From Candidatus Aerophobota bacterium (GTDB lineage: Bacteria; Aerophobota; Aerophobia; Aerophobales; B3-G15): a stretch of DNA of 13,379 nt. The DNA lies in the NCBI GenBank assembly GCA_014859225.1, contig JACUUP010000033.1, forward strand, positions 1-13,379, written 5' to 3'. Positions 1-13,379 of the stretch are shown piece after piece; within the stretch, counting starts at the first letter, position 1; every line of letters begins with the position of its first letter. Both the position numbers and the translations under genes were made by a program. Under the pieces are notes generated by a model. The model saw only the letters and a program-made list of their open reading frames with translations. It searched no databases and was not told where the DNA came from.

Positions 1-117
1 ATTGAAGAGATAAAAGAAGGTAAATTTGAAGCCGAGTTTGAAAAAATTATGGCTCTTAACACATCCGAGCTAAAAAAGCTTTATACCGACATGCAGAAAA
101 AACGTGAGGTCTACTAA
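1..117 (+). CDS. C-terminal end of an unidentified upstream gene (partial)
   Basis: Reading from base 1 there is an open frame of 38 codons closed by TAA at 115-117. The tail is rich in Lys and Glu, looks helical and ends in KKREVY. It contains no cysteine, so no Fe-S motif is visible in this part. The stop lies 10 bp before the ATG of the flavoprotein gene, and the next gene's ribosome-binding site overlaps the stop codon, so the two genes are almost certainly co-transcribed. The family cannot be recognised from 38 residues. By context it could be another redox subunit of the same complex, for instance an HdrB- or FrdB-like partner of the flavoprotein, but nothing in the sequence shows this. 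Confidence 0.6.
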   Translation: MEEIKEGKFEAEFEKIMALNTSELKKLYTDMQKKREVY

Positions 118-122
118 GGGAG
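116..122 (+). promoter_or_regulatory. Ribosome-binding site fixing the start of the flavoprotein gene
   Basis: AAGGGAG lies 5 bases before the ATG at 128 and overlaps the upstream stop codon. This good Shine-Dalgarno match is why the ATG at 128 is preferred to the in-frame GTG at 104, which lies inside the preceding gene. Confidence 0.7.
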
Positions 123-127
123 AAAAA

Positions 128-1789
128 ATGACTGAACTTAAACTTATAGGTGGCTATCCTGAGTATATGAGAAGGTCAATTAAACTTGTTGAGAAGACAA
201 GGCCACAGAGGGTAGGCAAACTGCCTGTCCAGATGGCACCAGAGGAAAGAGAAGAGATTTTAAACCTCTACCATCCAGATTATGCTCCAGGTGGTAAAAG
301 ATGCATAAAAATTGGTCCAAATAAGGGGGATATTGCTCCTAATGAAGTGGTGCATTTGCTTGAGGCATATCCTTTAATAGAACCTGAAGAAATTGACTTA
401 AGCAAAATAGATTATGATGTGGATATCTTAATAATAGGTGGCGGTCTTGCCGGAACAAGTGCCGCTCTTTTAGCCAATGATAGTGGAGTTTCTGCCGAAA
501 AGATTCTTCTTGCTAACAAGCTAAGACATGGGGATTCTAACTCTATTATGGCACAGGGGGGGACTCAGGCTGCGGACCGTCCGGGGGATAGTCCAGTAAT
601 TCACTATATTGATGCCCTGGGCGGGGGCCATTTTACCAACAAGTCTGATGTTTTAAGAGCATTGGTGGAAGATGCACCCTTTGCCATAAATTGGCTGGAA
701 GAGCTTGGGGTGATATTTGATAAAGATGCCAATGGTAATTTTATTGAACTCACTGGTGGGGGAACGTCAAAAAGGAGAATGCATGCCTGTAGAGATTATA
801 CTGGAATGGAGGAGCTCAGAATTTTAAGGGATGAATTTAGAAATAGAAATATTTTCTGTCTTGAATTTTATCCTGCAATTGAACTTTTAACTGAGGATGA
901 AGGAAAAGTTAGCGGTGCACTGCTCTGGGGTCTTGAGACAGGGGAGTACAAAGTTGTTCGGGCAAAAGCAACAATTCTAGCCACGGGTGGCTTTGGAAGA
1001 CTTCATATAAGGGGATTTCCGACTACTAACCATTACGGTGCTACCAGCGATGGCGTTGTTCTTGCCTATCGTGCTGGAGCAAAGCTAAGGGATACAGACA
1101 CTGTTCAGTATCATCCAACAGGTGCTGCCTATCCTCAACAGATAATAGGTCTTCTGCTTACCGAGAAGTTAAGGACAAGTGGTGCCCAACCGGTGAATAA
1201 AAATGGTGAAGCATTTGTGTTTCCGCTTGAGCCAAGAGATGTGGAGGCTGCTTCTTTTATAAGGGAATGCTATGCTACGGATAATGGAATTATAACCCCC
1301 ACAGGGATGAGGGGAATATGGCTTGATACACCCCTTATTGATGTTATTCATGGCAAAGGTAGGATTGAGAATTCTTTCCCGGCAATGGTGAGGATGTTTA
1401 AAAGATTTGGAATTGATATGCTAAAGGACCCTGTGCTTGTTTTTCCTACTCTTCACTATCAAAATGGGGGTGTAGAGACAGATGCGCAAGCCAGGACAAA
1501 TGTTGAAGGTCTTTTTGTTGCCGGCGAAGTATCAGGAGGTGTGCATGGTAAAAATAGACTCATGGGAAACTCAACGCTTGATTGTTTGGTATTTGGTAGA
1601 AGAGCAGGCATGTATGCTGCAGAGTATGTAAAATCAAATAAGAACAAGGGAGAGCTAACCTTACATCATGTTAAAAAATACGTAGATTTGCTTAAAGAAG
1701 CGGGTATAGACTCCAAAAGAAGAGCTCCCATACTCTTGCCAGAGTACAGAGGAAAACAGGTCCTGGCAAGAACAATTGACATATTTTGA
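128..1789 (+). CDS. Soluble fumarate reductase/succinate dehydrogenase-type FAD flavoprotein
   Basis: A 553-residue cytoplasmic flavoprotein of the FrdA/SdhA/NadB family. After an N-terminal extension of about 95 residues comes the FAD Rossmann motif (IIGGGLAG, about 101-108). The family's dicarboxylate-binding residues are present: HPTG with H329, a Thr-Glu pair near 344, R370, H443 in HYQNGG and R477 in NRLMGNS. This suggests reduction or oxidation of fumarate/succinate or a similar C4 acid. At the position of the histidine that binds FAD covalently in SdhA/FrdA there is N138 (DSNSIMAQGG), so FAD is probably non-covalent, as in L-aspartate oxidase. Only about 60 residues follow the NRLMGNS region, so the long C-terminal helical domain of SdhA is mostly missing. 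No signal peptide or membrane segment is seen. The gene stops 16 bp before a giant hdrA, which suggests that Hdr-type proteins rather than a quinone serve as its electron partner. L-aspartate oxidase activity is possible but less likely in this context. Confidence 0.85.
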   Translation: MTELKLIGGYPEYMRRSIKLVEKTRPQRVGKLPVQMAPEEREEILNLYHPDYAPGGKRCIKIGPNKGDIAPNEVVHLLEAYPLIEPEEIDLSKIDYDVDILIIGGGLAGTSAALLANDSGVSAEKILLANKLRHGDSNSIMAQGGTQAADRPGDSPVIHYIDALGGGHFTNKSDVLRALVEDAPFAINWLEELGVIFDKDANGNFIELTGGGTSKRRMHACRDYTGMEELRILRDEFRNRNIFCLEFYPAIELLTEDEGKVSGALLWGLETGEYKVVRAKATILATGGFGRLHIRGFPTTNHYGATSDGVVLAYRAGAKLRDTDTVQYHPTGAAYPQQIIGLLLTEKLRTSGAQPVNKNGEAFVFPLEPRDVEAASFIRECYATDNGIITPTGMRGIWLDTPLIDVIHGKGRIENSFPAMVRMFKRFGIDMLKDPVLVFPTLHYQNGGVETDAQARTNVEGLFVAGEVSGGVHGKNRLMGNSTLDCLVFGRRAGMYAAEYVKSNKNKGELTLHHVKKYVDLLKEAGIDSKRRAPILLPEYRGKQVLARTIDIF

Positions 1790-1805
1790 TGAGACCTCTG
1801 AAAAA

Positions 1806-4800
1806 ATGAACGGGAATAATAAAAAAATTGGTGCAGTAATGGTTGTGGGTGGAGGCATTGGTGGCATCCAGGCTTCCCTTGATTTAGCAGAGTCCGGGTT
1901 CCGGGTATATCTGGTGGAGAAAAAACCGGGTATTGGTGGAGTTATGGCTCAGCTTGATAAGACGTTTCCCACCAACGATTGTTCTATGTGCATTCTTTCT
2001 CCCAAGCTTCTTGGTGCGGGAAGAAATCAAAATATTGAGATTATAAGTTATGCCGACCTGGAAAAGGTAGAAGGTGAAGCAGGAAACTTCAAGATTAGCT
2101 TAAAAAAGAAGTCTACGTTTGTTAACTCTGATAAATGCACTGGCTGTGCCGAATGTGAGGATAAATGTCCGGTAGAGGTTTTAAGTGAATTTGATGAGGG
2201 TTTAACTCAAAGAAAAGCTATTTACCGCTTATATCCCCAGGTAGTTCCCAATGTTTTTACCATAGAAAAAAACGAAAATAAAGCTCCCTGCAAAATAACC
2301 TGTCCTGCCGGGGTAAATGTCCAGGGGTATATTGCTTTAATTTCTGAGGGTAAGTTCAGGGAAGCTTATGAGTTAATTAAAGAAAGGTTGCCCTTCCCCG
2401 GAGTTTTAGGGCGTATCTGTCAGCATCCCTGCGAGGAAAAATGTAACAGAAAAGAGCTTGATGAGCCGGTCGCCATTGCCGGTTTAAAAAGATTTGTGGC
2501 TGATTATGTTGAAGCACACAAGGAAGAATATCTTATTTCCAACGAGAAAAAAGATTTTGCGCAAACTAAAGAAAAAAAAGTAGCTGTTATTGGGGCAGGA
2601 CCGGCAGGGGTTACTTGTGCCTGTGATTTAGCAAAATCAGGATACGAGATTGTTATTTTTGAGGCTAACAGCTACCCCGGGGGAATGATGTATTCAGGAA
2701 TCCCGGATTATCGTTTGCCCGGACAGGTTCTTACAAGAGAAATAGAAAAGGTAGTCAAGGAAACGGGAATAAAAATTCTTTTTAATAGACCAATTCGCTC
2801 AAAAGAAGATTTTCAGAAATTAAGAAAAGATTACCCGGCCATCTTCATTGCCATCGGAGCAGGGAAAAGTAAAAAGTTAAAATTAGCAGGCTCACATTTA
2901 AAAGGTGTATTATATGGGGTTGAGTTTCTTAAAAATATTAATGAGGACAAGAAGGTTAAGGTAGGGGAGAAGGTGGCGGTAATTGGGGGAGGTAACGTTG
3001 CCATTGATGTAGCCTTATCTTCTCTGAGAATAGGGGCAAAGGAAGTTCATCTTTTCTGTCCTGAATCCCGCCATGAGATGCCTGCATTTGAGTGGGAAAT
3101 TGAGGAAGCGCTAAAAGAGGGAGTGATTATCCATCCTTCAAGAGGGCCAAAAAAAATTATAGGTGAGGATGGTAAGGTGACTGGCCTTGAAACTATTCTT
3201 TGCACACAAGTTTTTGACTCAGAGGGAAAATTTAATCCCAAATTTAAAGAAAAAACAGAATCTATTATCTTTGTTGACAGCGTAATAATTGCCATAGGTC
3301 AGGAAATAGAGCCTGCAGGGTTTGAGACTCTTAAATTTACCCCTACCCGGCTGATTGATGTTGATGAGATTAGTTTAGCTACTTCTATGAGCGGTGTTTT
3401 TGCCGGAGGTGATGTAGTTAGCGGGCCTGCCTCGGTAGTTGAAGCGGTAAGTCAGGGACATGCGGCAGCTATTTCCATTGATAGATACCTTAAAGGTGAG
3501 GATTTACGCACGGGAAGAGAAAAGGTAGAGGAAAAAGCAGCTGAAGTTCCTCAAAAAGAGGTTAAATTAAAAAAGAGAAAAATAATGCCCTGTCTTTCCC
3601 TTGATGAGCGGAAGGGAAATTTCAAAGAAATTGAACTGGGGTTTACTGAAGATATGGCAGTGGATGAGGCAAAAAGGTGCATTAATTGTGGTGTTTGTTC
3701 GGAGTGTCTTGAGTGTGTTAAAGCATGTAAGGCAGAGGCAATCTTTCACGATATGCTTGATGAAAAGATGGAGATAGAGGTTGGCTCCATCATTCTTGCT
3801 CCAGGTTTTGATGAATTTAATCCCCGCTTAAAAAAAGAGTATGGATATGGAAGATTTCCCAATGTTCTGACTAGTATTGAATTTGAGAGGATTCTATCTG
3901 CCTCAGGTCCTTTCCAGGGACACGTGGTAAGATGTTCTGATAAAAAAACTCCTAAAAAGATTGCCTGGATTCAGTGTGTTGGCTCAAGAGATGTAGCAGC
4001 GGGGCTCCCCTATTGTTCATCTGTTTGCTGTATGTATGCTACCAAGGAAGCTATTATTGCTAAAGAGCATGTTGGTTCGCATCTTGCCTGTCACATTTAC
4101 TTTATAGATATGCGCTGTTTTGGCAAGGATTTTGACAGATATTACGAGCGAGCAAAAACTGAATATGGGGTTGACTATAGAAGATGTAGAGTTTCCTCTC
4201 TGGATGAAGATAGTAAAACAAAAAACTTGAAAATAAGATATGAAACTGAAGATGGAAGTTTAAAGGAAGAGGAATATGACCTGGTGGTTTTATCGATAGG
4301 CCTGGTACCTCCCCGAGATATGTTAGAGGTAGCTGATAAATTAGCGGTTTGCTTAAATGAGTATAATTTCCTCAAAACAGGTGAGTTTTCTCCTGTCAAA
4401 ACAACAAAAAAGGGAGTGTTTGCCTGTGGTGCAATTTTAGAGCCTAAAGACATTCCCGAAACGGTAACCTCAGCAAGTGGAGCTTGTGCCTTAGCTTCAG
4501 CTCTTCTTTCCTCGGTCAGGGGAACTTTGGTAGCAGAAAAAAAATATCCTGCGGAAAAAGATGTATCAGGAGATATCCCGAGGATAGGTGTATTTGTCTG
4601 TCAATGCGGGATAAATATTGGAGGGGTGGTTAATGTTCCTTTGGTGGTTGAATATGCAAAAACCCTGCCCTTTGTTGTGTATGCTGAGGATAACCTCTAC
4701 ACCTGTTCCCAGGATACCCAGGATACAATAAAAGAAGCTATAGCCCAGCACAGCTTAAACCGGGTAGTAGTTGCCTCCTGCACTCCCCGAACACATGAGC

Positions 4801-6266
4801 CTCTCTTTCAGGAAACAATAAGAGAAGCAGGGCTAAACAGACACCTCTTTGAGATGGCTAATATTCGTGACCAGAACTCCTGGGTGCATATGAAACAGCC
4901 CCGGGAAGCTACAGAAAAGGCAAAGGACCTTGTAAGGATGGCTGTGGCAAAGGTATGTTTGAAAGAGCCATTATTAAGCTTTTCTTCAGAAGTTATTCAA
5001 AAAGCCCTTGTAATCGGGGGAGGTCTTGCAGGGATGGTAGCTTGCTTTAATATAGCCGAGCAGGGATTTGCTGTTTACCTGGTGGAAAAAGAGTTAGAAC
5101 TGGGGGGGAATGTAAGAAATATTCACCGGACATTGGAAAGCGAAGATGTGCAGACTTATTTAAAATCAATGATTAAAAAGGTTGAGGAAAATCCAAAAAT
5201 TAAGGTTTATAAAGGTGCGAAAATAGAGGAGATTCAAGGTTATGTAGGAAATTACCGCACACTGATAACTCAAAATGGAGAGCAAATACAGTTAGAACAT
5301 GGAGTAATTGTTGTTACTACAGGTGCGAAGGAATTAAAACCTGAGGAATACCTTTATGGCGAGGATGAAAAAGTAGTTACTCAACTTGAACTTGAAAAGA
5401 TGATGGCAAAACCTGATTTTAATATTCAGGCATTGAAGAATATAGTTATGATTCAATGTGTTGGCTCAAGAGAAGAGGAGAGGATGTACTGTAGTAGAGT
5501 ATGTTGCAGCGATGCTGTAAAGAATGCGCTCAGGATAAAAAAGGAAAACCCCGCGGCAAACGTATTTATTTTGTACAGGGATATGAGAACCTACGGGTTT
5601 AAAGAAAAATTTTATCAGCAAGCTCGAGAAAAAGGGATAATTTTTATTCGCTATGATAAACAAAGAAAACCTTGTGTGAGAAAAGATACCGGAGTTTTAA
5701 AAATAGATATCCTTGACCCTGTTCTTAAAAAAAGATTTATTATGCGGGCTGACCTTCTGGTATTAAGCTGTGCCATAGTTCCCAATGAAGATAATGAGGC
5801 TCTGGCAAAGCTACTAAAGGTTCCTTTAACCGAAGATGGATTTTATTTAGAGGCTCATGTAAAGCTTAGACCGGTGGATTTTTCCACCCGGGGCATATTT
5901 TTAGCCGGTATGGCTCACAGTCCAAAATTTATCAGCGAGACTATTTCTCAAGCCTTAGCTTCTGCACAGAAAGCCTGTGCGATAATTACCAGAAGTTATA
6001 TTGAATCAGAAGCAACTGTTGCCCGGGTAAATGAGAGATGGTGCAGAGGTTGCGGCGCCTGTGTTTCAGCTTGTCCCTACGAGGCGATAGCTATAGATGA
6101 GGAAGCGAATATTGCCCGGGTAACCGAGGTGCTCTGCCAGGGTTGCGGTAGCTGTAGCGTTGCCTGCCCCTCAGGAGCTATAGCTCAGAGGGGTTTTGAA
6201 AGAAGGCAACTTCTTTCCATGATAGATGCAGCAGTAGAGGGGGTCAGGTCTTGCAATATCACATAA
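1806..6266 (+). CDS. hdrA: Double HdrA fusion protein with inserted GltD/NfnB-like NAD(P)H domain
   Basis: A 1486-residue soluble Fe-S flavoprotein. Module A (about 1-920) is an HdrA lacking the HdrA N-terminal domain, with FAD motif VVGGGIGG (13-20) and cluster C111/C114/C117/C121. Residues about 149-600 form an inserted GltD/NfnB/DPYD-like unit: Cys-rich N-terminal part, FAD motif AVIGAGPAG (about 260-268), nucleotide motif VIGGGNVAID (about 392-401) and FAGGD near 531. The HdrA fold resumes at the Cys-rich motif from C625. Module B (about 924-1486) is a full HdrA: N-terminal domain with [12 protein letters not shown] motif VIGGGLAG (about 1067) and two C-terminal ferredoxin motifs (WCRGCGACVSACP and LCQGCGSCSVACP). 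QmoA plus QmoB is the nearest familiar arrangement. Its likely role is flavin-based electron bifurcation or confurcation linking NAD(P)H, ferredoxin and the neighbouring flavoprotein. The ATG at 1806 was chosen by alignment to the paralogue; the ribosome-binding site is weak. The last eight residues come from an inserted repeat. Confidence 0.88.
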   Translation: MNGNNKKIGAVMVVGGGIGGIQASLDLAESGFRVYLVEKKPGIGGVMAQLDKTFPTNDCSMCILSPKLLGAGRNQNIEIISYADLEKVEGEAGNFKISLKKKSTFVNSDKCTGCAECEDKCPVEVLSEFDEGLTQRKAIYRLYPQVVPNVFTIEKNENKAPCKITCPAGVNVQGYIALISEGKFREAYELIKERLPFPGVLGRICQHPCEEKCNRKELDEPVAIAGLKRFVADYVEAHKEEYLISNEKKDFAQTKEKKVAVIGAGPAGVTCACDLAKSGYEIVIFEANSYPGGMMYSGIPDYRLPGQVLTREIEKVVKETGIKILFNRPIRSKEDFQKLRKDYPAIFIAIGAGKSKKLKLAGSHLKGVLYGVEFLKNINEDKKVKVGEKVAVIGGGNVAIDVALSSLRIGAKEVHLFCPESRHEMPAFEWEIEEALKEGVIIHPSRGPKKIIGEDGKVTGLETILCTQVFDSEGKFNPKFKEKTESIIFVDSVIIAIGQEIEPAGFETLKFTPTRLIDVDEISLATSMSGVFAGGDVVSGPASVVEAVSQGHAAAISIDRYLKGEDLRTGREKVEEKAAEVPQKEVKLKKRKIMPCLSLDERKGNFKEIELGFTEDMAVDEAKRCINCGVCSECLECVKACKAEAIFHDMLDEKMEIEVGSIILAPGFDEFNPRLKKEYGYGRFPNVLTSIEFERILSASGPFQGHVVRCSDKKTPKKIAWIQCVGSRDVAAGLPYCSSVCCMYATKEAIIAKEHVGSHLACHIYFIDMRCFGKDFDRYYERAKTEYGVDYRRCRVSSLDEDSKTKNLKIRYETEDGSLKEEEYDLVVLSIGLVPPRDMLEVADKLAVCLNEYNFLKTGEFSPVKTTKKGVFACGAILEPKDIPETVTSASGACALASALLSSVRGTLVAEKKYPAEKDVSGDIPRIGVFVCQCGINIGGVVNVPLVVEYAKTLPFVVYAEDNLYTCSQDTQDTIKEAIAQHSLNRVVVASCTPRTHEPLFQETIREAGLNRHLFEMANIRDQNSWVHMKQPREATEKAKDLVRMAVAKVCLKEPLLSFSSEVIQKALVIGGGLAGMVACFNIAEQGFAVYLVEKELELGGNVRNIHRTLESEDVQTYLKSMIKKVEENPKIKVYKGAKIEEIQGYVGNYRTLITQNGEQIQLEHGVIVVTTGAKELKPEEYLYGEDEKVVTQLELEKMMAKPDFNIQALKNIVMIQCVGSREEERMYCSRVCCSDAVKNALRIKKENPAANVFILYRDMRTYGFKEKFYQQAREKGIIFIRYDKQRKPCVRKDTGVLKIDILDPVLKKRFIMRADLLVLSCAIVPNEDNEALAKLLKVPLTEDGFYLEAHVKLRPVDFSTRGIFLAGMAHSPKFISETISQALASAQKACAIITRSYIESEATVARVNERWCRGCGACVSACPYEAIAIDEEANIARVTEVLCQGCGSCSVACPSGAIAQRGFERRQLLSMIDAAVEGVRSCNIT
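4461..4918 (+). repeat. 458-bp exact repeat, copy 1 (inside first hdrA)
   Basis: Every base of 4461-4918 matches 9946-10403 (constant offset 5485). It encodes the end of HdrA module A and most of the N-terminal domain of module B. The first mismatches outside it are at 4460 (A/G) and 4919 (G/A); a few more occur by 4957, and similarity then falls sharply after about 4970. The pattern fits recent gene conversion between the paralogues. Confidence 0.93.
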
Positions 6267-6362
6267 GAGAAATTGTGCTTCAGGGAATTAACATGCTATA
6301 TATCAAGCGTTCAAGACCTAATCTGTCACTATTGAAAATGTGATATTGCAAGACCTGACCCC
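6240..6362. mobile_element. MITE-like inverted-repeat element, 123 bp, at the hdrA 3' end
   Basis: Bases 6240-6264 and 6338-6362 are perfect 25-bp inverted repeats (ends GGGGTCAGGTCTTG / CAAGACCTGACCCC). They enclose 73 bp of AT-rich sequence with no ORF. A related motif, CAAGACCTAA, recurs inside at 6312-6321. The left arm is read through by hdrA: its first 24 bases are the last eight sense codons (GVRSCNIT), and its last base is the first base of the TAA stop. No clear target-site duplication flanks it. The element is too small to encode a transposase, so a non-autonomous MITE or REP-type palindromic element is the best reading. In RNA it would fold into a long 25-bp stem between hdrA and mvhD, which could affect mRNA stability or the expression ratio of the two genes. 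Confidence 0.82.
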
Positions 6363-6375
6363 ACCATTAAAATGC

Positions 6376-6383
6376 GAGGAGGT
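6376..6383 (+). promoter_or_regulatory. Strong ribosome-binding site of first mvhD
   Basis: GAGGAGGT lies 5 bases before the ATG at 6389, just outside the inserted element. It is the strongest Shine-Dalgarno sequence seen in the window. It should allow independent initiation of mvhD now that the element separates it from hdrA, whereas in the second copy mvhD overlaps hdrA. Confidence 0.75.
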
Positions 6384-6388
6384 AATTT

Positions 6389-6811
6389 ATGGCTGACTTT
6401 GAGCCAAAGATAGTTGGTTTTCTTTGTAATTGGTGCACTTATGCAGGAGCAGACCTTGCAGGCACATCAAGAATGCAATATCCATCAACTATTAGACCCA
6501 TCAGAGTGATGTGTTCAGGTTCAGTTGATTCTGCTTACATTCTTCGGGCTTTACTGGAAGGAGCTGATGGGGTTCTTATTGGTGGATGTCATCCAGGGGA
6601 TTGCCACTATGTAAGCGGAAATTATAAGGCGAGGAGGAGGGTTACTGTTTTAAAAACTATTTTAAAAACCTTAGGATTGGATGATGAAAGAGTGTGGGTA
6701 AGGTGGATAAGCGCAAGTGAAGGCAAAAGGTATGCAGATACTATATCCGAGATGACGGCGCATTTAAAGAAGATAGGTCCAAGTCCTGCACGTAAATTAT
6801 GGTCCTTGTAG
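6389..6811 (+). CDS. mvhD: MvhD/FlxD-like [2Fe-2S] electron transfer subunit, copy 1
   Basis: A 140-residue protein of the MvhD family (F420-non-reducing hydrogenase iron-sulfur subunit D). MvhD proteins carry a [2Fe-2S] cluster and pass electrons from a hydrogenase, formate dehydrogenase or NADH-oxidising partner to HdrA. The family cysteines are all visible: C13 and C16 in FLCNWC, C42, then C67 and C72 in [10 protein letters not shown]. The length is normal for a stand-alone MvhD. It follows hdrA after a 122-bp gap created mostly by the inverted-repeat element, and the next gene starts 13 bp downstream. It is clearly paralogous to the gene at 11739-12164, with the cysteines at the same residue numbers. 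The role is firm at family level; the actual electron donor is inferred from neighbours. Confidence 0.92.
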   Translation: MADFEPKIVGFLCNWCTYAGADLAGTSRMQYPSTIRPIRVMCSGSVDSAYILRALLEGADGVLIGGCHPGDCHYVSGNYKARRRVTVLKTILKTLGLDDERVWVRWISASEGKRYADTISEMTAHLKKIGPSPARKLWSL

Positions 6812-6824
6812 ATAGAGGTAGAAA

Positions 6825-7952
6825 ATGAGCAAACATTTAAAAGTTGAGGTAAAGAACGGTAAAATAAAAGAAGCTATCAACTTTTTTTTAATAGAACTTC
6901 TCAAAAAAAATCTGGTTAGTGCACTTTTAGTTCCCCGAGAGCTTCCATCAAAAGATAATGTAGTGCAAAGCCTGGTGAGCCAACCCGATGAGTTGAAAAA
7001 CGCCGATGTTTTTGCTCCTGTCCTTCCTGTTAACTCGGCAAGAATTATCTCAGAGATGACCAGGCTTGGTTCTGGTAAAGCTTCGGTAGGAGCTATTCTC
7101 AGGTCTTGCGAGATACGAGCTTTGATAGAACTTGTTAAGTTAAAGCAAGCCTCCTTAGATAACCTGCTTATAATCGGGATAGATTGCCCGGGAACCTATT
7201 CAGTGAAAGATTATAAAGCTCTCTGCCAGCAAGGCATCTATCCTGAAGATGAGCTTTTTAAAAATCTTAAAAAGGGTATGGAGGATGTTAGAATAAGAGA
7301 AGCCTGTAAAGTTTGCGAGTATCCTGTTCCCTCTAATAGTGATTTAACTTTTGGTTTTTTGGGAGTAGATTTTGAAAAAAACATTTTTTTTCAGGCTAAC
7401 ACTTCTAAAGGGGAAAAGATTTTGGATAGGTTTTCTTATTTAGAGTTTGATGGGCTAAAGATAAGAGAGGAATTTATTTTTAAATACCTTAAGCAGAAGA
7501 TTAAAAAAAGAGATGAACTTTTTGCCCTGACTCAAAAAGAGGTTAAAGGGTGGGAAAATTTAATTTCATTTTTTTCCGCCTGTATCAACTGTCACAACTG
7601 CATGAAAGTTTGTCCTGTTTGTTATTGCCGGGAATGTTTTTTTGAATCAGCTTGTTTTGAGTTTAACGGGGATAAATATCTAAACTGGGCTAAAAAGAAA
7701 GGGTCTATTAAAATGCCGAAAGATACAGCTCTTTTTCATCTTGGAAGGATGGCTCATATGGCTACCTCGTGTGTGGGATGTGGAGCTTGCGAAGAGGCTT
7801 GTCCTAATAATATTCCTTTACTTAAAGTATTTAAAACAGTTGCTCATAATGTCCAGGAGATATTTCAATATGTTCCGGGAAAAAAATTGCAAGAGCCACT
7901 ACCACTTACCACTTTCAAGGAAGATGAGCTTCAGAGGGTAGGGGAAGATTAA
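6825..7952 (+). CDS. FdhB/FrhB-like iron-sulfur protein (F420 hydrogenase/dehydrogenase beta-type), copy 1
   Basis: A 375-residue soluble protein resembling the beta subunits of F420-reducing hydrogenase and of formate dehydrogenase (FrhB/FdhB), widespread beside hdrA-mvhD in anaerobic bacteria. The C-terminal half carries two [4Fe-4S] motifs: C253/C256/C259/C263, followed at once by extra cysteines C266, C268 and C271, and C316/C319/C322/C326. A conserved central ACKVCE motif lies upstream of these. The N-terminal half shows no classical Rossmann motif; in FrhB relatives the corresponding region helps bind FAD, so a flavin is possible. It probably hands electrons to MvhD/HdrA. F420 use is not shown by the sequence. 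The start ATG follows AGAGGT, and the stop TAA abuts the next ATG directly, indicating translational coupling with hdrC. It is longer than its paralogue at 12164-13120 (375 versus 318 residues). Confidence 0.78.
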   Translation: MSKHLKVEVKNGKIKEAINFFLIELLKKNLVSALLVPRELPSKDNVVQSLVSQPDELKNADVFAPVLPVNSARIISEMTRLGSGKASVGAILRSCEIRALIELVKLKQASLDNLLIIGIDCPGTYSVKDYKALCQQGIYPEDELFKNLKKGMEDVRIREACKVCEYPVPSNSDLTFGFLGVDFEKNIFFQANTSKGEKILDRFSYLEFDGLKIREEFIFKYLKQKIKKRDELFALTQKEVKGWENLISFFSACINCHNCMKVCPVCYCRECFFESACFEFNGDKYLNWAKKKGSIKMPKDTALFHLGRMAHMATSCVGCGACEEACPNNIPLLKVFKTVAHNVQEIFQYVPGKKLQEPLPLTTFKEDELQRVGED

Positions 7953-8651
7953 ATGGCAGAGCCTCAAGTAAAGATAATAAGGTTAAGCGAATTAGATTTA
8001 AATTTTAAATACGAGATTCAAAAAGAGCCTGGAGGTGAAAATATTACCCGTTGTTTTGCCTGTGGTAGCTGCACCAATGCTTGCCCCATTAGAGAAATAG
8101 ATGAAAAATACAATCCAAGAAAAATTATCCACATGGCGCTTCTTGGTATGAAAGATGAAGTTTTTAAAAGTGAATTTGTCTGGCTTTGTTCCAGCCATTA
8201 TACCTGTTTTGAGAGATGTCCCCAGGGTGTAAATATTGGTGCAATTGCAAGTGCAGTGCGAAGTATTGCTATAAAAGAAGGTTTTTATCCTGACCCTCAG
8301 GATAGTTCCTGGAATGAGCAAGAGGTAATAGAATTTGATGAGCTTGACCAGGAGCTTAAATATAAGGTTGCTGCTGAGGAGGGGGGTGAAAATATTAGCC
8401 GCTGTTTTGCTTGTGGGAGCTGCACAGCGATGTGTCCTGAACGGGAGAGAGACGAAAGGTACAATCCGAGGAAATTTATCAGAATGATAATTTTGGGGAT
8501 GAAAAAAGAAGTTTTTCAAAGTGATTTTTTGTGGCTTTGCTCCACCCATTATAGATGCGCTCAGCGCTGCCCTCAGGGAGTAAATATCAAGGAAATTATG
8601 AATGCAATTAAAAATATTGCCACAGGAGAAGGTTACACATCACCACTTTAA
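7953..8651 (+). CDS. hdrC: Tandem-duplicated HdrC (two HdrC domains in one chain)
   Basis: A 232-residue protein built of two similar HdrC-like halves (about 8-113 and 125-230), both running from a [4Fe-4S] motif RCFACGSC through (K/R)YNPRK to WLCS.H and RCPQGVNI. Cluster ligands: C34/C37/C40/C44 and C151/C154/C157/C161 in the first motifs. In the second motifs, C79/H82/C85/C89 and C196/H199/C202/C206, a histidine stands where HdrC proteins commonly have the second cysteine. HdrC normally transfers electrons from HdrA to HdrB, which carries the catalytic clusters. No HdrB is encoded in the window, so the two halves may bridge the two HdrA proteins on either side, or serve a partner outside it. 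The gene starts immediately at the stop of the FdhB/FrhB-like gene. No membrane segment is seen, which argues against QmoC- or DsrM-type membrane HdrC relatives. Confidence 0.87.
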   Translation: MAEPQVKIIRLSELDLNFKYEIQKEPGGENITRCFACGSCTNACPIREIDEKYNPRKIIHMALLGMKDEVFKSEFVWLCSSHYTCFERCPQGVNIGAIASAVRSIAIKEGFYPDPQDSSWNEQEVIEFDELDQELKYKVAAEEGGENISRCFACGSCTAMCPERERDERYNPRKFIRMIILGMKKEVFQSDFLWLCSTHYRCAQRCPQGVNIKEIMNAIKNIATGEGYTSPL

Positions 8652-8672
8652 GATTGACTAACAAATGTAGTT

Positions 8673-8688
8673 GCACCCTTCAGGGTGC
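8673..8688. repeat. GC-rich palindrome in the hdrC-hdrA gap
   Basis: GCACCC-TTCA-GGGTGC forms a 6-bp perfect stem with a 4-base loop, extendable by a G-U pair and, past one bulged T, by G-C and A-T pairs (8669-8691). It fills much of the 58-bp gap between hdrC and the second hdrA. A run of only four T follows six bases later, so it is a poor intrinsic terminator. It may be a REP-like palindrome or an mRNA processing/attenuation element setting the level of the downstream genes. Confidence 0.55.
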
Positions 8689-8709
8689 GCTGTTTTCGTG
8701 AGAAAAAAT

Positions 8710-11700
8710 ATGGATGAAAATAACAAAAAAATTGGTGCGGTTATGGTAGTAGGGGGTGGCATTGGTGGAATTCAAGCATCCCTTGATTTAGCTGAGTCTG
8801 GTTTTAAAGTTTATCTGGTGGAGAAAAATTTAAGCATCGGTGGAGTTATGGCTCAGCTTGATAAAACTTTTCCCACCAATGATTGCTCTATGTGTATCCT
8901 GTCTCCCAAGCTTGTTGAATGTGCAAGACATAGAAATATTGAACTTCTTACCCGCTGCGAGGTGGAAAGTATTGAGGGAAGTGCAGGCAATTTTAAAATA
9001 AAAGTTAAAAAACATCCCCGTTTTGTTGATGTATCTAAGTGCACAGGTTGCGGAGATTGTGCTGAGGTTTGCCCGGTTGAGGTTCCTGACGAATATGAGG
9101 AAAACTTAGCAAATAGAAAGGCAATATACCGGCCCTTCCCTCAGGCAACTCCTGGTGCATTTGGCATTGATAAAAGTGGTGCATGCTGTGAATGTATGCA
9201 GTGTGAAAAGGCTTGCAAGGCTGAGGCGATTTTACACAATATGCTGGAGCAAGATATAGAGCTAAATGTTGGCTCTGTAATTGTTTTTCCTGGATTTGAT
9301 GAGTTTGAGCCGAAGCTAAGAGAGGAGTATGGGTACGGGCTATTCTCCAATGTTGTAACGAGTATTGAATTTGAGCGAATTCTATCTGCCTCAGGTCCTT
9401 TTCAAGGTCATGTGGTAAGATGTTCTGATAAAAAAACTCCCAAAAAAATAGCCTGGATTCAGTGTGTTGGCTCAAGGGATTCGAAAATTGAAAGAGGATA
9501 CTGTTCATCGGTTTGTTGTATGTATGCTACCAAGCAGGCTTTAATTACAAAAGAACATTCTCCAGATATACGAACAACTATCTTTTACATTGATATGCGA
9601 GCCTACGGGAAAGAATTTGACCGCTATATAGAAAGAGCAAAATTAGAATACAAAGTGAGATATATTCGCTCACGCATATCCGAGGTGAAAGAAGATGCTA
9701 AGACACATAATTTGAAGATAAAATATGAACGAGAGGATGGTGAGCTTGTAACAGAAGAATTTGATATGCTTGTTCTGTCAGTGGGTCTTGATGTATCAAG
9801 AAGTGCAAAAGATTTAGCAGAAAAACTTAATATAAATCTAAATAGTTACGGTTTTGCCAGGGTTGACAGCCTTGAACCACTTAAAACATCCAGGCCCGGT
9901 ATTTTTGCCGGAGGTGTGTTCTCTGGTCCCAAAGATATTCCCGAGACGGTAACCTCAGCAAGTGGAGCTTGTGCCTTAGCTTCAGCTCTTCTTTCCTCGG
10001 TCAGGGGAACTTTGGTAGCAGAAAAAAAATATCCTGCGGAAAAAGATGTATCAGGAGATATCCCGAGGATAGGTGTATTTGTCTGTCAATGCGGGATAAA
10101 TATTGGAGGGGTGGTTAATGTTCCTTTGGTGGTTGAATATGCAAAAACCCTGCCCTTTGTTGTGTATGCTGAGGATAACCTCTACACCTGTTCCCAGGAT
10201 ACCCAGGATACAATAAAAGAAGCTATAGCCCAGCACAGCTTAAACCGGGTAGTAGTTGCCTCCTGCACTCCCCGAACACATGAGCCTCTCTTTCAGGAAA
10301 CAATAAGAGAAGCAGGGCTAAACAGACACCTCTTTGAGATGGCTAATATTCGTGACCAGAACTCCTGGGTGCATATGAAACAGCCCCGGGAAGCTACAGA
10401 AAAAGCAAAGGACCTTGTAAGAATGGCTGTGGCAAAGGTGTCTTTGAAAGAGCCACTGGGCAGGATTTCTTTAAAACTCACCTCCAGGGGATTAGTCATT
10501 GGAGGAGGTCTCGCAGGAATGGTATCAGCTTTGCGCCTTGCCGAGGAAGGATACGAGGTATATTTGGTGGAAAAGGAGGATACATTAGGCGGTCAGGCAA
10601 AAGATATTTATTACACCCTAAAAGGTGAGGATGTTCAAAAATTTTTATCCAAGCTCATAGAAAAGGTAACCTCAAATAATAAAATCCACATTTTTACCGC
10701 TGCTACCATTGAAAAAATTGAAGGGTTTGTGGGCAATTTCAAAACTACCATTAAACTAAATTCTTCTTTAAAAGAGCTTGAGCATGGAGCTGTTATTGTG
10801 GCGAGCGGGGCAAATGAATATCAACCTACAGAGTATCTTTTTGGCAAAGATAAAAGAGTCGTTACCCAGCGAAAGCTTGAAGAGTTGATTGCCACAAAAA
10901 AATTAAATGTTAGCAATCAAAGCTCTATAGTTATGATTCAGTGTATTGGCTCAAGATGTGATGAAAATCCTTATTGTAGCAGGGTTTGTTGCTCAGAGGC
11001 GATAAAAAATGCCCTGGCGCTTAAAAAAATGAACAAACAGGTTAATGTCTACATTCTTTACCGTGACGTAAGAACATACGGGTTCAAGGAAGACTGGTAC
11101 CAGAAGGCTCGAGAACAGGGCGTTCTATTTATTCGTTACGAAGAGGACGATAAACCTGAGGTTAAGTTAAATAAAGACAAACTTGAAGTCCTGGTTAAAG
11201 ATTTGATACTTGAGGAAAAATTATTAATTTCTGCAGATTTAGTTGTCTTAAGCACCGCTACAGTTCCGTCTGAGGATAATAAAGAGCTATCTCAGCTTTT
11301 GAAAGTTCCTTTAAATGAGGACGGCTTTTTTATGGAAGCTCATGCCAAGCTTCGTCCGGTAGATTTTGCTACTGATGGCATCTTTGTCTGTGGTCTGGCG
11401 CATTCTCCCAAGTTTATTGAAGAGAGTATATGTCAGGCTAACGCATGCGCTGCCCGTGCTTGCACAATTTTATCCAGGGATGAGCTTGAGGTTGAAGGAA
11501 TTGTGGCTGAAGTGAACGAGCTGAAGTGCAAAGGATGCAGGCTCTGTAAAGAAATTTGCCCTTATGGGGCAATTGATGTAGAGCTTAAGAAAGTTCTGGG
11601 AAAAGAAAAGGAAGTAGCCCGCGTAAATCCCGCATTGTGCAAAGGTTGTGGTGCCTGCAGTGCATCCTGCAGGTCAGGTTCAATTGACCTTAAAGGATTT

Positions 11701-11742
11701 TCTGATTCTGAGATACTCACACAGATAGGAGCCCTGGTATGA
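8710..11742 (+). CDS. hdrA: Double HdrA fusion protein without GltD insert
   Basis: A 1010-residue soluble protein with the same two-module plan as the first hdrA but no nucleotide-binding insert. Module A (about 1-450): FAD motif VVGGGIGG (13-20), ferredoxin motif [13 protein letters not shown] near 111, then [12 protein letters not shown], where the first HdrA carries its GltD domain. Module B (about 451-1010): full HdrA with N-terminal CQCGINIGG domain, FAD motif VIGGGLAG near 598, and two C-terminal ferredoxin motifs ([13 protein letters not shown] and [12 protein letters not shown]). The last Cys of the final motif is followed by Arg instead of the usual Pro. Its expected role is as flavin/Fe-S hub receiving electrons from MvhD and distributing them to ferredoxin and HdrC. 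The ATG at 8710 is used because alignment with the first HdrA begins there; an in-frame TTG at 8671 lies within the hairpin region and is unlikely. The stop overlaps the next ATG (ATGA). Confidence 0.9.
9946..10403 (+). repeat. 458-bp exact repeat, copy 2 (inside second hdrA)
   Basis: Identical base for base to 4461-4918. It spans the module A/module B junction and the N-terminal HdrA domain of module B. See the first copy for boundaries. Flanking hdrA sequence is homologous but diverged at both silent and coding positions. Confidence 0.93.
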
Positions 11743-12164
11743 AAGTAAAGGAGCCTAAAATTGTTGCCTTTTTATGCAACTGGTGCTCTTATGCAGGTGC
11801 AGACCTTGCGGGAGTTTCCCGTATTCAGTATCCTCCGAATATAAGGGTTATTCGTGTTCCCTGTTCAAGTAGAGTGAATCCTCTTTTTATTTTAAAGGCT
11901 CTTCAGGAAGGTGTGGATGGTGTTTTGGTAGCAGGTTGTCATCCGGGCGACTGTCATTATATTTCGGGAAACTATCTTGCCCGAAGGAAATTTACCATTT
12001 TTAAAAATCTTTTGGATTATCTTGGAATTGAGAAAGATAGGGTCCATTTTACCTGGATTTCAGCGGCAGAGGGAGCAAGATTTGCCGAAATAGTCAAAGA
12101 AGTTACTGAACGGGTAAAAAAATTAGGACCAGTGAAGAGACTGGTGAAGAATAGGAGTGCCTGA
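11739..12164 (+). CDS. mvhD: MvhD/FlxD-like [2Fe-2S] electron transfer subunit, copy 2
   Basis: A 141-residue MvhD-family protein with the five ligand cysteines C13, C16, C42, C67 and C72 (FLCNWC and GCHPGDCHY motifs), matching the first copy residue for residue in position. It should carry electrons from the downstream-encoded ferredoxin/flavin subunits to the second HdrA. Its ATG overlaps the hdrA stop by four bases (ATGA), and its own TGA overlaps the next ATG by one base (TGATG), so the three genes are translationally coupled. With FrhB-like and HydB/AsrA-like genes following, this copy corresponds best to FlxD of FlxABCD-HdrABC systems; that label is inferred from context, since the protein alone does not distinguish MvhD from FlxD. 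Confidence 0.92.
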
Positions 12165-13120
12165 TGCAAAGTGTGGAAAATAGGATAAAGGAAAAAGCAG
12201 CCGAGCTTCTAACTACAAAAAAAGTTGACCTTTTAATTGGCTTTGAAAGAGGGACAATGCCCCTCAGAGCCTCGCCTGCATTTATTTACGATGAAGCTGA
12301 TATAGAGAAACTTGCCTGGAATTCCTTTTGTGAAATGAACCTTGCCCGCTATCTTACCCGTATCACCAGTAAGCGAGTGGGAATTATTGCCAAGGGTTGC
12401 GATTCTCGCGCAATAGCTGCCCTTGTGGTTGAGGGACAGGTCAAAAGAGAACAAATTATGATTATTGGCGTTCCCTGCCCGGGAATGGTAGACAGAAGAA
12501 AAATAGAAAAAGAGATAAAGGGTGAGATAGATAAGGTGGAGGAAAAAAAGGGTGAGATTATAGTCAAGGGAAATAATTTTGAGAAAGTTTTTAAAAAAAA
12601 TAACTATCTTTATCCTTGCTGCAAGGTTTGCAAACACGGCAATCCTTCAATTTATGATATCTTAATTGGTGAGAAGGTAAAGGAAAATAGTAAGGTTGAT
12701 GAATATGCTGAAATTACAGAGTATGAGAAAAAATCACCTGATAAAAGATGGGAGTTTTTTGAGAAGGAAGTGAGCAAATGTATAAGATGTTATGCCTGCA
12801 GACAGGCCTGTCCTATGTGTTACTGTGAGGAATGTTTTGTTGATAGCTTTCATCCGAAGTGGGTAGATAAAAGTCTTGATTTTTCTGATATTGCCATCTG
12901 GCATATTATGCGCGTCTACCATCAAACAGGAAGATGTGTAAGTTGTGGTGCTTGTGAGCGAGCCTGTCCCATGCAGATAAATTTGCGATTTTTAACTGAG
13001 AAAATTAATAAAGATGTGAAAGTGTATTTTAATTTTGAGGCAGGATTGGACCTTTCTGTAAATCCTCCCCTTGCTGCCTTTGACATTAAGGACAGAGAGG
13101 ATTTTATTGACACTTGCTAA
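12164..13120 (+). CDS. FrhB/FlxC-like dicluster iron-sulfur protein, copy 2
   Basis: A 318-residue protein, shorter paralogue of the gene at 6825-7952. It has a central CCKVCKHGNP motif and two C-terminal [4Fe-4S] motifs: C206/C209/C212/C216 followed by C219, C221 and C224, and C258/C261/C264/C268. A segment with IIAKGCDSR and IIGVPCPGM resembles the beta-subunit family of F420 hydrogenase and formate dehydrogenase. No transmembrane helix or signal peptide is apparent. The ribosome-binding site AGGAG (12153-12157) sits inside the end of mvhD, and the start overlaps the mvhD stop. Next downstream is a HydB/AsrA-type subunit, so this protein probably relays electrons inside an NADH-oxidising Flx-like arm. 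Assignment as FlxC is inferred from gene order. An FdhB role with an unlinked formate dehydrogenase is the alternative. Confidence 0.75.
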   Translation: MQSVENRIKEKAAELLTTKKVDLLIGFERGTMPLRASPAFIYDEADIEKLAWNSFCEMNLARYLTRITSKRVGIIAKGCDSRAIAALVVEGQVKREQIMIIGVPCPGMVDRRKIEKEIKGEIDKVEEKKGEIIVKGNNFEKVFKKNNYLYPCCKVCKHGNPSIYDILIGEKVKENSKVDEYAEITEYEKKSPDKRWEFFEKEVSKCIRCYACRQACPMCYCEECFVDSFHPKWVDKSLDFSDIAIWHIMRVYHQTGRCVSCGACERACPMQINLRFLTEKINKDVKVYFNFEAGLDLSVNPPLAAFDIKDREDFIDTC

Positions 13121-13133
13121 GGAAGAACAAAAT

Positions 13134-13379
13134 ATGAAAAAGATTAACAAGCGTGATATGGGTGAATTTGTGCACTCTCTGGTGAAAGATTTCACTGTTT
13201 ATGCACCAGTCAATGTTGATGGCATTTTTTTATTTAAGCAGGTTAAAAGCTTTGAAGAAACGAGGCTTGATTATAAAAATTCCATCAAACCTCCCAAGGA
13301 GATATTTTTCCCTCAGTCAGAGGTCATGTTCAAATACGAAAAAGGCAAACTACGTTCAACCGAAACAGTTGATGAAAAA
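13134..13379 (+). CDS. HydB/AsrA/FlxB-like ferredoxin subunit, N-terminal part (runs off the window)
   Basis: The first 82 codons of a gene starting at ATG 13134, preceded by GGAAG at 13121-13125, 13 bp after the FrhB-like stop. The visible part resembles the N-terminus of the family that includes sulfhydrogenase beta subunit, anaerobic sulfite reductase subunit A and FlxB: a DFTVYAPVNVDG stretch near residue 19, then PPKEIFFPQSEVMFKYE near 53-69. The Fe-S motifs of this family lie further on and are not in the window. In relatives the next gene encodes the FAD/NAD(P)H-binding partner (HydG/AsrB/FlxA), so an NAD(P)H input module for the second HdrA is expected immediately downstream. The family call rests on a short segment and should be held moderately. 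Confidence 0.65.
   Translation, partial: MKKINKRDMGEFVHSLVKDFTVYAPVNVDGIFLFKQVKSFEETRLDYKNSIKPPKEIFFPQSEVMFKYEKGKLRSTETVDEK

Follow-up and report, generated by a model that had tools for sequence, protein, structure and literature searches.

How can two hdrA genes that are strongly diverged along most of their length share several hundred base pairs without a single difference? The question is raised by a stretch of 13,379 nucleotides from a Candidatus Aerophobota bacterium (contig JACUUP010000033.1, positions 1 to 13,379; hereafter the window), in which two paralogous genes for HdrA, an anaerobic electron-transfer enzyme, lie in one operon in direct orientation, 5.5 kb apart:

1776 to 6266, forward strand: gene A, a double-module HdrA with a GltD-like insert in module 1 (ORF of 1496 aa; HdrA and GltD families; orthologues L114 and L115).
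8671 to 11742, forward strand: gene B, a double-module HdrA without the GltD insert (ORF of 1023 aa; HdrA2 family; orthologues L113 and L003/L116).

Both genes encode two FAD/thioredoxin-reductase modules, the mark of type II (double) HdrA, and alignment to a solved HdrA (5odc_A) recovers the N-terminal FeS, FAD/thioredoxin-reductase and ferredoxin domains of soluble HdrA. NCBIfam HdrA models match both proteins below their whole-protein cut-offs, and these scores may reflect the double-module build. The operon runs from a TfrA/SdhA-like flavoprotein through A, MvhD, an FrhB-like protein, a doubled HdrC and B to second MvhD and FrhB-like genes. The HdrC-like protein (7953-8651) is the product of an internal tandem duplication, consisting of two HdrC units whose halves are identical at 65 of 115 aligned residues. 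G011 and G009, which belong to the same order, supplied orthologues of both A and B, and a search of the class and phylum (17 genomes) added no further relatives. Gene order near A and near B is largely conserved in G009, where A and B sit on separate contigs with compatible ends. Two other genomes, G015 and G014, contain hdrA-like frames of ~667 aa (L094 and L095, respectively) with one in-frame TAG each, which may reflect a sequencing error, a recoded stop or decay to a pseudogene.

The GltD insert of gene A is ~73% identical to those of its orthologues when compared in frame. Gene B, at ~9160-9200, is without the ~470-residue GltD insert that is present in its orthologues in G009 (L116:2381-6838) and G011 (L113:3005-7585). 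The junction, GIDKSG followed by 11 further residues, is in frame and leaves a CxxCxxCxxxC iron-sulphur motif. Gene B nests among B types that have the insert, which suggests that the lineage of the window lost it cleanly.

Exact-repeat comparison across the whole window gave a maximal match of 458 bp between the two genes, as the earlier note had stated, and the next longest exact repeats are 29, 26 and 26 bp. Both copies are on one contig, and the reading frame is kept in both genes. The segment and its border are as follows:

4461 to 4918, forward strand: identical tract, gene A copy (exact match to 9946-10403).
9946 to 10403, forward strand: identical tract, gene B copy (exact match to 4461-4918).
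4919 to 4970, forward strand: soft 3′ edge, gene A (4 differences in 52 bp against 10404-10455).
10404 to 10455, forward strand: soft 3′ edge, gene B (4 differences in 52 bp against 4919-4970).

Outside the tract, the genes are ~60-68% identical in DNA and 54-67% identical in protein, and the FAD domains downstream are as diverged as had been described (54% protein identity). The tract had also been said to begin and end sharply. This holds for the 5′ edge, which follows 60 bp with 23 differences, but not for the 3′ edge, where the next 52 bp contain only four differences, compared with 11-15 for the orthologues over the corresponding 54 bp; once the soft edge is counted, the low-divergence segment spans ~510 bp (4461-4970). 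Similarly, the tract had been placed over the junction of the modules and the HdrA N-terminal domain. Alignment to 5odc_A confirms that it starts near the end of module 1, where it takes in ~39 codons ahead of the N-terminal FeS domain of module 2, but it stops ~30 residues short of the end of that domain and covers roughly the first 114 of its ~144 residues. No converted tract is found between the other paralogues of the operon, namely the mvhD copies, the FrhB-like copies and the two HdrC halves.

Conservation of the protein is not in itself accompanied by identity of the DNA, as is seen in a control block upstream of the tract in both genes:

3873 to 3992, forward strand: control block, gene A (40 identical residues, 10 base differences against 9361-9480).
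9361 to 9480, forward strand: control block, gene B (40 identical residues, 10 base differences against 3873-3992).

The ten differences reported earlier for this block are all present and sit in nine codons, and in the relatives 34-36 of the 40 residues are kept between the paralogues. Silent sites separate the tract from the rest of the genes. Among informative codons with identical residues, A and B of the window show silent differences at 0 of 149 in the tract versus 236 of 480 in the flanks (p = 7.5e-37); at the flank silent rate of 0.49, 0/149 would arise with a probability near 1e-44. The same segment emerges when silent sites are permuted (p = 0.001, the lowest value attainable with 1000 shuffles).

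The orthologues provide a control. Between G011 and G009, silent differences amount to 32/128 in the tract versus 180/722 in the flanks for the A types and 51/124 versus 256/672 for the B types; between the window and G011, the corresponding values are 53/119 versus 278/611 for A and 44/118 versus 264/647 for B. A significant drop in silent divergence in the tract was seen in no tested orthologue pair, and the fall to zero that the earlier note had proposed as a test of conversion is therefore confined to the tract and to the two paralogues. Because the tract diverges between orthologues at the same rate as the flanks, its silent sites are under no special constraint, and their identity in the window requires exchange.

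Trees of 16 genes, in which constrained topologies were compared by AU tests, locate this exchange. Both flanks yield an A clade and a B clade, and forcing the two window genes together in the flanks is rejected, with log-likelihoods worse by 150 and 276. The tract, by contrast, groups the two window copies, and tract trees that keep the A clade or the B clade are rejected (log-likelihood worse by 109 and 101). Protein identities agree with the flank trees on both sides of the tract: the flanks of gene A are 73-80% identical to the A type versus 54-65% to the B type, and those of gene B are 72-88% identical to the B type versus 56-69% to the A type. Because the flanks of each gene keep their own orthology on both sides, the exchange is non-reciprocal. 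The same pairing, A with A and B with B, indicates that the contig is not a chimera of the 5′ part of one gene and the 3′ part of the other.

The identical tract is thus best explained as the product of a recent non-reciprocal exchange, that is, gene conversion, between the two hdrA genes, a reading to which we assign a probability of about 90%; the orthologue controls and the conflict between tract and flank trees bear out the first of the two origins that had been suggested for it. In this process, homologous recombination would have replaced ~0.46 kb of one gene with the corresponding piece of the other while leaving the flanks in place, probably through RecA-type strand invasion that would have started in the stretch where A and B keep their longest shared DNA. 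Among the sites at which both relatives distinguish A from B types, those in the first 18 codons of the tract are A-like (7 of the 8 sites matching either type), and those that follow are mostly B-like and then mixed. The simplest reading, a modest one, is that exchanges had happened before and that A was the last donor, at least at the 5′ edge. For 0/149 silent differences, the 95% upper bound is ~2%, versus 37-46% to the nearest relatives; if saturation is ignored, the event would be much younger than the split from G009 and G011. Because the compared genomes belong to the same order and none to the same genus, this age is relative to that split only.

The same tract has been converted in a relative as well. 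In G011, the paralogues show silent differences of 36/125 in the tract versus 249/488 in the flanks (p = 8.5e-6), and the best segment corresponds to residues 474-542 of B. Within this segment, the G011 paralogues differ at 9/62 versus 16/61 and 23/60 for their orthologues in G009; that the paralogues are closer to each other than to these orthologues points, on small counts, to an event after the split of G011 and G009. This event touched only part of the tract, since grouping the two G011 copies across the full tract gives a worse tree (AU p = 0.041). Exact runs of more than 30 bp between the G011 paralogues (52 and 38 bp) occur only in the tract, so that homology sufficient to initiate recombination is concentrated in this part of the genes. 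The G009 paralogues show a weaker drop (p = 0.012). Judged from these silent sites, an older, partly decayed conversion is apparent in the same tract in G011, with a weaker trace in G009.

Recurrence in these relatives does not make conversion a fixed property of the family. Across 20 double-hdrA paralogue pairs tested for lowered silent divergence in the tract, the drop was strong only in the window and G011 and weak in G009, L004 and L017, and most of the pairs showed none; conversion is sporadic. In L017, the protein is conserved and the silent sites are diverged (41% vs ~52%). L004, a tandem double-hdrA pair of the Dehalococcoidia (SOKA01000081.1, genes at 1759 and 5755), contains a 116-bp exact run in module 1 and is otherwise ~62% identical in protein, likely as a result of an independent conversion.

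The alternative that survives best accepts conversion and gives it a purpose: exchange would be favoured because both HdrA proteins dock the same partner through this domain, so that conversion keeps the docking surface identical, as the earlier note had supposed. The older trace in G011 and the weak one in G009, in the same tract, are consistent with such selection. However, the edges of the tract and of the domain do not coincide, a divergence of 30-50% in this domain is tolerated by most paralogue pairs that lack a conversion signal, and the Dehalococcoidia tandem pair is converted mainly elsewhere, in module 1. Conservation of DNA homology, moreover, accounts for the location without selection: high conservation would supply the homology, and each conversion would renew the substrate for the next, with no need for a selected function. 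Adaptive conversion is accordingly unlikely. It is similarly doubtful that double-module HdrA has a recurrent conversion hotspot in its N-terminal FeS domain, with selected, domain-restricted concerted evolution, which would keep the paralogous bifurcating complexes of the order interoperable through partner docking. Since older events occurred in the same tract in a relative, this domain evolves in partial concert while the rest of both enzymes diverges.

An assembly artefact, the other origin that had been suggested, would mean that the true tracts differ and that a short-read assembler either fused them or used one to fill in the other. The draft genome consists of 273 contigs, and an exact repeat of 458 bp exceeds the usual short-read k-mers. 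Against this, the copies in the relatives differ by 16-20% of tract bases, which an assembler separates easily, and merging needs near-identical copies, which would itself require homogenisation. The flanks are correctly paired and the contig runs through both copies, whereas an unresolved repeat usually ends a contig rather than giving two copies inside one. Low divergence also extends beyond the exact match, where a few differences are present; a genuine event of slightly greater age would leave this pattern. Collapse of the repeat is therefore an improbable origin of the tract, and an artefact could at most hide a handful of true differences in the draft assembly.

Strong selection on protein or codons, acting without exchange, could be invoked since in many pairs no other part of the gene is as conserved as this domain, but it is refuted by the orthologue control, in which tract silent divergence is normal (25-46%, equal to the flanks), and has almost no probability left. 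Independent receipt of the same segment by A and B from a third gene or a foreign donor is just as implausible, because a search of the genome found no third copy of the tract, and the tract is as far from the relatives (0.29-0.31) as the flanks are (0.25-0.36).

Gene conversion between the two hdrA genes has parallels in known systems. In Salmonella, tufA and tufB undergo non-reciprocal, recA-dependent transfer of contiguous tracts (PMC5485169), likewise between two genes of one chromosome; the tuf genes, however, are nearly identical over their full length, whereas the hdrA genes are homogenised in one stretch between flanks that are ~60-68% identical. The bacterial release-factor genes for RF1 and RF2 are a closer case, namely conversion between long-diverged essential paralogues (PMC4530459), in which one domain-sized segment is exchanged and the rest remains distinct, the exchange is recurrent and the trees conflict along the gene, as in hdrA. 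The RF1/RF2 events are old and were deduced from divergent sequences (PMC4530459), whereas the hdrA event is recent, has left no differences and involved direct repeats of a single operon separated by 5.5 kb.

Type II (double) and type III (GltD-inserted) HdrA proteins were surveyed in methane-metabolising archaea in 2025 (PMC12054007). The type II proteins resemble those of the window in having two thioredoxin-reductase modules, and gene A also contains a type III-like GltD insert; the surveyed proteins are archaeal, whereas the window is bacterial and its gene A joins traits of types II and III. That survey of HdrA diversity makes no mention of gene conversion or recombination (PMC12054007), and a literature search on gene conversion and HdrA, covering titles and abstracts, returned no report of hdrA gene conversion. 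Conversion between paralogues, including domain-confined conversion in long-diverged genes, is already established, and hdrA is a well-supported new example of it.

As a natural case of recent conversion, the locus is a clean one: the two genes are strongly diverged elsewhere, and orthologues serve as controls. Because pieces of this domain are swapped between hdrA genes, hdrA trees built from it will mislead on the history of the whole gene. The finding also means that parts of a core anaerobic energy enzyme are swappable between two distinct complexes of one operon.
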